Positions 22,214 through 33,417 of a stretch of DNA of 42,591 bases are shown here, in pieces; the first letter of the stretch is position 1, and each line of letters opens with the position of its first letter. The position numbers and the translations under genes were made by a program. Source of the DNA: Candidatus Woesearchaeota archaeon (GTDB lineage: Archaea; Nanobdellota; Nanobdellia; Woesearchaeales; UBA9642); the NCBI GenBank assembly GCA_013330595.1, contig DUIB01000020.1:1-42591 (forward strand). Reading direction: 5' to 3'. A model generated the notes under the pieces. It saw only the letters and a program-made list of their open reading frames with translations, was not told the DNA's origin and searched no databases.

Positions 22214-23143
22214 ATGACCATATATAAATCAAAATCCTTTCTCGCTCCTTTGTCTGGGATAAATGATCCTGCATTCAGGTTATTATGCTCTGAATTAGGG
22301 GCAGGATTGACTTATACAGAATTAATCAGTATTCATGGTATATTACATCATAAGGATAATATTAGGAGTTTTATTGAATATTCTGACAATGAAAAGCCTA
22401 GAGCAATACAATTATTCGGTTCAGATATTGAAAAAACAGTTCAGGCAGCTGAAATTGTTGAGAAACATTTTGATATAATAGATTTCAATCTTGGATGTCC
22501 GAGCCCTAAAATAACTGAACAGAATGCAGGAGCAGCATTATTGAAAAAACCTGAACATGTCAAGAAGTTATTATCAAAATTAGTCAAGGCTGTTGATAAG
22601 CCTGTATCAATTAAAGTCAGGGCAGGCATTGACAATAAGTCTTGTTTTTTGTTTAAAAATATTGCAAAAATTGCAGAAGAGTCAGGAGTAAGCATGATTG
22701 CATTGCATGCAAGAACATTAAAACAAGGATATTCAGGGAAAGCAAATTGGGAATGGATAAAAGAATTAAAGGAAAGTGTTTCTATTCCTGTTATTGGAAA
22801 TGGTGATGTTAATACTCCTGAGGATGCAGAGAAGATGATTAAAGAGACTGGATGTGATTATGTTATGATAGGCAGAGCATCAATTGGCAATCCTTTTATT
22901 TTCAAACAATGCAATGATTATTTCAAGAATGGAAAATATGAAGTATTAAATGATAAGAAAAAAATTGATTATTTTTTCAAATATCTTGAATATGCAAAAG
23001 AGTTTGATGTATCTTTCTCAAAGATCAAAGTCCATGCAATGTGGCGCACAAAAGGCATGATAGGCGGAGCAGGATTGAGAAGAGAGATATCACAGGTTAA
23101 GAATTTAGATGAATTAAAAAAAATATTTCACAAACTTTATTAA
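22214..23143 (+). CDS. dus: tRNA-dihydrouridine synthase (Dus)
   Basis: A 309-residue FMN enzyme that reduces uridines in tRNA D-loops. Motifs in order: FLAPLSGINDPAFR at the start, FNLGCPSPKI with the catalytic Cys, SIKVRAGID, IALHARTLKQGYSGKANWEW, IPVIGNGDV and YVMIGRASIGNPFIF (FMN phosphate site). Length and barrel order match the family. It precedes rnhB on the same strand with 21 bases between. Confidence 0.93.
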   Translation: MTIYKSKSFLAPLSGINDPAFRLLCSELGAGLTYTELISIHGILHHKDNIRSFIEYSDNEKPRAIQLFGSDIEKTVQAAEIVEKHFDIIDFNLGCPSPKITEQNAGAALLKKPEHVKKLLSKLVKAVDKPVSIKVRAGIDNKSCFLFKNIAKIAEESGVSMIALHARTLKQGYSGKANWEWIKELKESVSIPVIGNGDVNTPEDAEKMIKETGCDYVMIGRASIGNPFIFKQCNDYFKNGKYEVLNDKKKIDYFFKYLEYAKEFDVSFSKIKVHAMWRTKGMIGGAGLRREISQVKNLDELKKIFHKLY

Positions 23144-23164: not shown

Positions 23165-23858
23165 ATGGCATTCATAGCAGGGATCGATGAGGCCGGCAGA
23201 TAAATCTTTTGGGATTTAGCCGAGAGGTCCATTAATCGGTCCTTTAGTTATAGTTTGTGCAGCGATAGCTCAAGATAGATTAAGCATTCTTAAGGAGCTT
23301 GGTGTCAAGGATTCTAAGTTATTGACTGAAAAGCAAAGAGAGGAAATATTCAAGAATATTGAGCATCAACTAAAATATGAACTGACTATCATTCAACCTA
23401 AGGATATTGATGAAGCTGTTAATGCAAAATCCTATAATCTTAATTGGCTTGAAGCAGACAAGGCAGCTGATCTATTGAATAAGATTGATACAAAACTTGA
23501 TAATGATGTTTCAGAGGTAATAGTTGATTGTCCTTCTAATAATACTAATGCCTATAAGAATTATCTTAAACAAAAGGTTGATAATGAAGAAATGAAATTA
23601 ACTGTTGAACATAAAGCAGATCTAAATCATTTAATTGTTGGAGCAGCATCAATAATAGCCAAAGTGACTAGAGAGAAAGAGATTGAGAAGATAAAGAAAA
23701 AGATCAAGATAGACTTTGGCTCCGGATATCCATCTGATCCTAAGACAAAGGAATTCCTGAAAAAATATTATTCACAATATCCATTGATATTCAGAAAGTC
23801 TTGGGAGCCATACAAGAGCATTGTTTCTTCAAAAAGCCAGACTAAATTATTCAGTTGA
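23165..23858 (+). CDS. rnhB: Ribonuclease HII, coding sequence split by a 25-nt BHB intron
   Basis: RNase HII removes RNA from RNA-DNA hybrids. Exon 1 is 23165-23199 (MAFIAGIDEAG plus AG of the Arg codon), the intron is 23200-23224, and exon 2 is 23225-23858 starting with A of the Arg codon and GPLIGPLVI. Spliced, the protein has 222 residues with catalytic DE in GIDEAGRGP, VDCPS, EHKAD and GAASIIAKVTRE, all as expected. Unspliced, TAA follows GIDEAGR directly, and 694 bases is not a multiple of three. The ORF track only shows an internal start at 23322, lacking the active-site Asp-Glu. The intron is required for activity, so splicing of mRNA by the tRNA-splicing endonuclease is predicted. 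Confidence 0.92.
23200..23224 (+). other. BHB intron in rnhB mRNA (25 nt)
   Basis: Perfect canonical BHB: central helix CGGC/GCCG, both bulges AGA (AG|A), inner helix TAAATC/GATTTA with loop TTTTGG. The exon joint GGCAG|AGGTCC restores codons GGC AGA GGT CCA (GRGP). It is the same core as tRNA-Thr intron 1. Confidence 0.92.
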
Positions 23859-31354: not shown

Positions 31355-32110
31355 ATGAAACCATATTTGAAAATAAATTATTTATGCAGGGATATTGTCC
31401 GACTTCACGCACATTTATGTGGAGATGGTTGTTTGTATGAAAAACTGGAAAAACCGAGCAGATCTAATATCCTCAGAGGCAGAGTAGGAAGATTCAAGAG
31501 ATATGTCGTAGATTATTCTAATGTAGATAAGAATTTACTTGATGAATTTCAGAGGATTATATACGAAATTGCTCCCTTATCATATATCTCAAGAGGAAAT
31601 AATTTTGTTAGAGTCAGAAATAAGACACTTTTTTATTATATGAAAAGTTTAGGATGCGGGAAAACCGAAGATTGGCATATATTTGAATATATATTAAAGA
31701 ATCATCAATATAGATTAATATGGCTGGCTGCTTTTATTGATGATGAAGGATGTATTAAAAATAACTCTATAGAGATATATACGACTAATGAAAAAGGAAA
31801 AAATCAAATAATAAGATTATTAAAATCAGAAAATATTAATTGTAAGATTTACATAAGAAGACCTTCAGATAAACATCCGAGATTTTTGTACACGATAAGT
31901 CTATCCGGATTAAATCTATGTCGGCTTAGGAGTTTGAATTTGGTTCACTCAAAAAAGAAAAATAAATTTAAGGAACTTATAAGAGATAAATGCGCTCGCC
32001 GGGATTTGAATTCCCGAATCGTTCAATCAAGAAACGATTTCCCGGGCACCCGGCTAGCCTCTTTTTCTGCAGATGCAGAAACAATGGAAGGCCGGAGTCA
32101 TAACCGCTAG
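31355..32110 (+). CDS. Stand-alone LAGLIDADG homing endonuclease overlapping tRNA-Gly antisense
   Basis: A 251-codon ORF with two LAGLIDADG-type helices, HAHLCGDGCLY at about 18-28 and LIWLAAFIDDEGCI at about 125-138, each with an acidic residue for metal binding, so it is a single-chain nuclease. The likely end of the fold is near FKELIRDK; the last about 40 codons are antisense to the tRNA-Gly gene because no stop occurs until the D-arm. The neighbouring tRNA has two introns, which are possible homing sites. It is not inside an intron or an intein. Whether it is active is unknown. Confidence 0.78.
   Translation: MKPYLKINYLCRDIVRLHAHLCGDGCLYEKLEKPSRSNILRGRVGRFKRYVVDYSNVDKNLLDEFQRIIYEIAPLSYISRGNNFVRVRNKTLFYYMKSLGCGKTEDWHIFEYILKNHQYRLIWLAAFIDDEGCIKNNSIEIYTTNEKGKNQIIRLLKSENINCKIYIRRPSDKHPRFLYTISLSGLNLCRLRSLNLVHSKKKNKFKELIRDKCARRDLNSRIVQSRNDFPGTRLASFSADAETMEGRSHNR
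32011..32040 (-). other. tRNA-Gly intron at 53/54 (30 nt)
   Basis: Central helix CCCG/CGGG and inner helix AATCGTT/AACGATT are both perfect; bulges GG|A and AA|T. Same site as initiator tRNA intron 3. Confidence 0.92.
32056..32084 (-). other. tRNA-Gly intron at 37/38 (29 nt)
   Basis: Central helix CTTC/GAGG (one U-G), bulges CA|T and CT|A, inner helix TTTCTGC/GCAGAAA. Confidence 0.88.
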
Positions 32111-32184
32111 ACCACAAGCGCATTGATGAAAGAAAAAATTATGGATTTATAAAATTAGTGGAAATATGATTAGCATGATATCAA

Positions 32185-32610: not shown

Positions 32611-33417
32611 CTATTTCTTTGCTTTGATCTGTTTAGTCTCATCAATCAATAAAGTCATTTGATCAATTGCTATAGTATTTAATTTCTCAAGTCTTTTTGT
32701 TTTCTCAATTTTCTCCTTTATAAATAATGCGTTTAGATTCTCAAGATTTGATAAACATACTAATTGTGTGACATCTGCGTAATCTCTAATATTTCCTTCT
32801 AATTCAGGGTTTCTTTCTCTCCATTCCTTTGCAGTCTTTCCGAATAATGCAAGATTAAGTATATCTGCTTCCGTAGCATAAATTAGGTTTTCCTCACTTC
32901 TAGTAATTTTTTCTGGTATAAGATGTTTTTGTATTGCATCTGTATGTATTCGATAATTTATTTTTGTTAGTGTTCTCTTAATATCCCAGTCTAATGATTT
33001 TCTTTCATTTTCCTCATCTTTTAGCCTCTGGAATTCTCTAATCAGGTATAGCTTAAATTCAACAGATATCCATGAGGCAAATTCAAAAGCAATATCCTTA
33101 TGGGCGAATGTTCCCCCATATCTTCCTGGTCTGGAAATAATACCTTTGGCACTTGTCTTTTCCATCCATTGTGTAGCTGTAAGCACAAAACTGTTTAATC
33201 CTGCTCTTTTTCTAAACCCGTCGAATTCGACGGGATTAAAATCTTTGTTATTTATCTTCTCCCAAATACCTAAAAATTCTATTGTATTCCTATTCCTCAG
33301 CCAATTTTTTATGATATCATCTGTTCTCTCATCCTTATACCTGGCAATATCTGTCAAGGATATATATTCTTCGTCCTTTATTGAGATGTTACTTCCTAAT
33401 ACACTTATTTTGACCAT
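32611..33417 (-). CDS. KilA-N domain protein
   Basis: A 268-residue protein with an N-terminal KilA-N-type DNA-binding domain: YISLTDIARYKDERTDDIIKNW, then AGLNSFVLTATQWMEKT and GRYGGTFAHKDIAFEFASWIS, which is the hallmark end of the domain. The C-terminal half (about 140-268) is helical. KilA-N proteins are typical of phages, large viruses and mobile DNA. Ends with TAG. Next to SET, endonuclease and mini-ORFs it suggests a small integrated accessory region. Confidence 0.82.
   Translation of the reverse strand: MVKISVLGSNISIKDEEYISLTDIARYKDERTDDIIKNWLRNRNTIEFLGIWEKINNKDFNPVEFDGFRKRAGLNSFVLTATQWMEKTSAKGIISRPGRYGGTFAHKDIAFEFASWISVEFKLYLIREFQRLKDEENERKSLDWDIKRTLTKINYRIHTDAIQKHLIPEKITRSEENLIYATEADILNLALFGKTAKEWRERNPELEGNIRDYADVTQLVCLSNLENLNALFIKEKIEKTKRLEKLNTIAIDQMTLLIDETKQIKAKK

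Follow-up and report, generated by a model that had tools for sequence, protein, structure and literature searches.

A candidate tRNA-type BHB intron in the RNase HII gene of a woesearchaeote and inserts at the same site in other archaea

rnhB, coding for RNase HII, occupies positions 23165-23858 (+ strand) of the window, as we call the whole 42,591 nt stretch of Candidatus Woesearchaeota DNA analysed here. With a probability of about 0.95, this gene is interrupted by a 25-nt archaeal pre-mRNA intron of the bulge-helix-bulge (BHB) type, which would be spliced by the tRNA-splicing endonuclease EndA and the ligase RtcB.

The gene upstream of rnhB (22214-23143, +) codes for a dihydrouridine synthase (Dus; Pfam Dus 4e-84) and ends 21 bases before the rnhB start. 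Translation from the ATG at 23165 gives MAFIAGIDEAGR, followed by TAA, and GPLIGPLVI onward lies in a different frame. The initial annotation had described this break, located right after GIDEAGR with GPLIGPLVI resuming out of frame past 25 bases, and translation confirms it. Exon 1 (23165-23199, +; ATG...GGCAG) encodes the peptide given above, its last bases being the AG of an Arg codon. Exon 2 (23225-23858, +) begins with the A of this codon, continues with GPLIGPLVI and ends with TGA. The predicted intron between them (23200-23224, +) reads ATAAATCTTTTGGGATTTAGCCGAG, and its first complete codon in the exon-1 frame is TAA. The insert is therefore positioned within the Arg codon (AG/A) of the catalytic GIDEAGR/GP motif of RNase HII.

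Without 23200-23224, rnhB is a run of 222 codons free of stops. This joined ORF bears out the expectation that AG/A cuts on both sides would restore GGC AGA GGT CCA and a product of 222 residues: the latter contains all RNase HII family motifs, including DEAGRG, and matches Pfam RNase_HII (PF01351) with 171.4 bits over profile positions 1-197. Exon 2 alone gives 148.5 bits, starting at profile position 9. An alignment with solved archaeal RNases HII, one of the checks named in the initial annotation, was run and extends along the full length of the spliced product (PDB 1uax, E 3e-45). Exon 2 could also be imagined to be translated alone from an internal TTG at 23322, yielding a shorter protein, and the ORF 23322-23858 is indeed open. 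However, its product would lack the catalytic Asp-Glu and scores 96.6 bits against 171.4, while GPLIGPLVI, which lies upstream of this TTG, is conserved in frame; we consider such an internal start extremely improbable.

Purifying selection acts on rnhB exon 2 (dN 0.25-0.30 vs dS 2.0-3.7, pairwise with two congeners), and the genome contains no second rnhB copy. Both observations speak against a decayed gene, i.e., an rnhB pseudogene with a chance 25-bp insertion. The latter, as well as an assembly error, might be suspected since the locus is known from DNA only and the assembly is a MAG of 71 contigs, but dozens of unrelated assemblies have inserts at the same base together with BHB pairing. 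We give practically no credence to either explanation.

The borders of the insert have the core of a BHB: two 3-nt bulges flank a 4-bp central helix. The helix is formed by CGGC in the Ala/Gly codons of exon 1 (23194-23197, +) and GCCG inside the intron (23219-23222, +). Both bulges are AGA (23198-23200 and 23223-23225, +), with predicted cuts between 23199 and 23200 and between 23224 and 23225. The inner stem, TAAATC (23201-23206, +) paired with GATTTA (23213-23218, +), has 6 bp, or 7 counting a T-G pair. Thus, the centre, bulges and inner stem of what had been called a perfect BHB stand, but the outer helix is weak: in the strict register a G/G mismatch comes right after a single C-G pair. 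An alternative fold with a 3-bp centre and a 4-nt bulge has an outer helix of 3-4 bp and is 0.6 kcal/mol better (-10.8 vs -10.2 kcal/mol). All members of the same-site set have a weak outer helix, because the coding sequence forces the G/G mismatch. Some EndA types tolerate relaxed BHB forms lacking an outer helix (PMC12397907), so the weak helix does not exclude membership among BHB introns. The single-sequence fold of the insert region is not unusual (z -0.93), and such folding was dropped as proof of a BHB. As the lone fold is unremarkable and the outer helix is weak, the case rests on comparison.

A scan by sequence pattern through about 85,000 species of bacteria and archaea gave 34 matches, and 33 of these are RNase HII genes carrying their insert at exactly this position. 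The remaining one (L067, Dehalococcoidia) is spurious and not an RNase HII, and the scan found no genuine bacterial same-site insert. The titles of the matches were Woesearchaeota, Nanoarchaeota, Aenigmatarchaeota, Lokiarchaeota, Thermoplasmatales/Thermoplasmata, Thermoproteota and Bathyarchaeota, with one called just "archaeon". One contig is titled "bacterium" (L083); its RNase HII groups with that of a nanoarchaeote (L062) with support 99, so it is probably a misnamed bin. Extra cases were gathered by GAC-codon patterns; control patterns gave zero matches in 599 genomes.

Altogether, counting the window's own, 62 distinct inserts with lengths of 16-43 nt share the site and phase in archaeal rnhB. 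They come from Woesearchaeota and other DPANN, Aenigmatarchaeota, Lokiarchaeota, Thermoplasmatota, Thermoproteota and Bathyarchaeota; judging by these sequences, the split at one rnhB site extends over six or more archaeal groups at the phylum level. The search of relatives that had been proposed earlier was fruitful: among 145 of them, the break in rnhB recurs at the identical base in at least seven further genomes of the window's order, spread over seven families, and rnhB is intact in three congeners. The insert is present in 24 of 53 rnhB-bearing genomes of one Lokiarchaeota order and in 3/42 of one Thermoplasmata order. Removal restored the reading frame at all same-site inserts examined. 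The shortest ones, 16 nt in a thermoproteote (L076) and 18 nt in a member of the window genome's class (L189), come close to the smallest form of a BHB, with only a tiny stem inside. One Thermoplasmata genome (G151) has, besides its split rnhB (L058), a second rnhB at G151:C49:10028-10564, which matches the profile from position 1 and has no internal stops.

Pairing was evaluated between four exon bases (the third base of the Ala codon plus the Gly codon) and four intron bases in these 62 inserts, nearly all of them from archaea other than the window's genome. All four central pairs are present in 49 inserts vs 14.7+-3.0 after permutation, and none of 5000 permutations reaches 49. The total of central pairs is 235/248 vs 180.7+-4.8 (0/5000 as high). 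In a set thinned below 70% identity, 34/40 have all four pairs, with 8.3 expected. At the Ala wobble position A-T, T-A, C-G and G-C pairs are all seen. The inner stem sum is 210 vs 25+-6 in shuffled introns, and partition-function support was obtained for 31/63 vs 6/315 shuffled. The complete central helix is found in 30 of 35 inserts outside Lokiarchaeota and in 19 of 27 in Lokiarchaeota, where this helix is often weak, with low pairing probability. The exon-intron central helix thus covaries among archaeal inserts, which argues for a BHB beyond chance.

This covariation is not needed for translational bypassing, in which the ribosome would halt at AGA, hop over the 25-nt hairpin and resume at the second AGA. 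The window taken alone could suggest it, as both bulges are AGA and a stop follows the first. However, take-off and landing triplets are identical in only 3/52 cases, in 12/62 the landing triplet is itself a stop (TAA or TGA), and the species scan contains no bacterial case. Landing triplets that are stops rule out ribosomal bypassing, whose probability we rate as negligible. Frameshifting was rejected as an explanation of the split rnhB as well, since insert lengths occupy all three classes modulo 3.

A stop codon in the exon-1 frame is present in 57/62 introns, a count which does not represent independent events as the Lokiarchaeota members share ancestry; the other two frames have 29 and 18. 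Outside Lokiarchaeota, introns with stops number 30 (exon-1 frame), 17 and 13 of 35. All 29 introns of length 3n carry an exon-1-frame stop. Such over-representation suggests an early end for the unspliced message. The Arg codon is AGA in 51/52 intron-bearing genes vs 46/96 intronless ones.

The strong excess of exon-1-frame stops would also suit an RNA-processing switch rather than a constitutive intron, with a BHB cut by EndA but poorly ligated, lowering RNase HII. There are precedents: EndA cleaves the BHB in the 5' UTR of Haloferax HVO_1309 (PMC7714728), and the cbf5 intron has been suggested to act as a negative regulator (PMC2738675). We nevertheless consider this unlikely, since the exact restoration of frame and codon at every examined same-site insert implies that selection sees the ligated product. 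With pseudogene, assembly error, frameshifting and bypassing failing as alternatives, the initial annotation of a BHB (tRNA-type) intron is supported, having withstood all in-silico tests applied.

The window genome encodes both enzymes that a spliced rnhB intron would require: EndA with N- and C-domains (L086) and RtcB (L087, E 1.5e-166). An EndA was identified in 29 of the 33 other genomes with an rnhB intron. According to the proposed mechanism, the wobble-containing exon 1 codons (CGGC) would pair in the transcript with the intron 3' end (GCCG), EndA would cut between nucleotides 2 and 3 of each 3-nt bulge (AG/A and AG/A), and RtcB would ligate the exons into GGC-AGA-GGT-CCA, giving the 222-aa RNase HII. 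An unspliced message would terminate at the stop immediately after GIDEAGR. We infer from the sequences that this cleavage and ligation occur in the cell, and production of RNase HII would then depend on the endonuclease and on RNA ligase.

DPANN genomes as a rule have one EndA gene, and the lone EndA gene of the window genome resembles a one-subunit enzyme, while several Lokiarchaeota genomes have two EndA genes. Splicing of cbf5 mRNA was linked to hetero-oligomeric EndA, so that the single gene of the window genome counts against rnhB splicing; relaxed specificity was reported for heteromeric enzymes (PMC2738675). In our interpretation, the weaker helices of Lokiarchaeota combined with two EndA genes would fit such relaxed specificity.

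Several tRNAs of the window genome contain introns. In this 94% complete genome, no more than 18 tRNAs pass the Rfam cut-off, and ARAGORN has found introns of 15-45 nt in six of these 18; further tRNAs may be hidden by multiple introns. A tRNA gene with an Rfam match at 31991-32121 (-) of the window is 131 bp long, about 57 bp too long, and was missed by ARAGORN. By eye, it has an intron in the anticodon loop, and the T arm may contain another. A LAGLIDADG-type ORF (31355-32110, +) overlaps it in antisense and possibly codes for a homing endonuclease associated with this tRNA's intron. A KilA-N domain protein is encoded nearby (32611-33417, -); this family is common in viruses and mobile elements.

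Changes of intron state were counted on an RNase HII protein tree. The tree follows lineages rather than intron state, and the window's protein falls among its congeners (99). Lateral transfer of split rnhB between phyla is therefore not supported. At least 22 intron state changes are needed (10 of them forced by strongly supported branches) vs 42.8 for shuffled labels. In one sister pair, L034 (with the intron) and L042 (without it) agree in how exon 1 ends and in the Arg-Gly-Pro junction. Most Lokiarchaeota introns are 30 nt long and they resemble each other, which points to one origin there, followed by losses. Between phyla, homology is not provable for introns this short; an ancient intron that was often lost and an intron gained repeatedly at a single site are both possible. 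We tentatively speculate, without holding it to be the likelier outcome, that this one rnhB site in DEAGR/G already housed an intron before the main lineages of archaea diverged, or has been site-specifically regained repeatedly, the intron being kept as a stop-bearing switch coupling RNase HII to the tRNA-splicing machinery.

Overall, archaeal mRNA splicing looks broader than cbf5 alone: a second intron-bearing gene in Asgard, DPANN, Thermoplasmatota and TACK would make EndA-dependent mRNA splicing a broad archaeal trait. RNase HII is a DNA-repair enzyme, and functional rnhB genes are likely to be annotated as broken by gene callers. Dozens of natural variants are now available for studying EndA specificity and the question of an ancient versus a regained intron.

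Short hairpin inserts with a stop right after the upstream codon are also characteristic of the bypassing elements of T4 gene 60 and mitochondrial byp. The rnhB inserts share this appearance, but differ by having no matching landing codon, no bacterial occurrence, and exon-intron covariation. Archaeal tRNA and rRNA BHB introns have the same structural core and predicted enzymes, and tRNA introns are present in the window genome itself. In rnhB, however, the exons code for protein and exon codons make up half of the central helix. The HVO_1309 5' UTR in Haloferax (PMC7714728) is likewise an mRNA BHB processed by EndA, but it is located in a leader, whereas the rnhB BHB is inside the ORF and needs exon joining.

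The closest known system is the intron of cbf5, the archaeal pseudouridine synthase gene, in Sulfolobales and Desulfurococcales (Yokobori et al. 2009, PMC2738675). It was named as the only mRNA intron of such kind in archaea in a 2020 paper (PMC7714728); the initial annotation cited cbf5 in Crenarchaeota as the main described case. No mention of an rnhB intron was found in open-licence literature. The suggestion that an intron in a DPANN nuclease gene is new holds in this respect, but the split site extends over the phylum-level groups listed above. Both cbf5 and rnhB introns are of the BHB type and of similar size (16-44 nt in cbf5), occur once per gene in a catalytic motif, are cut by EndA between bulge nucleotides 2 and 3 (as predicted for rnhB) and have a patchy distribution with lineage losses. 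They differ in the gene (RNase HII), the phase (2) and the lineages, which for rnhB are DPANN, Lokiarchaeota, Thermoplasmatota, Bathyarchaeota and others. cbf5 splicing was linked to a hetero-oligomeric EndA pair, while the window genome shows one EndA gene, with rnhB splicing predicted. Compared to the searched literature, the split gene and the lineages are new, and the mechanism would be that of the cbf5 intron.
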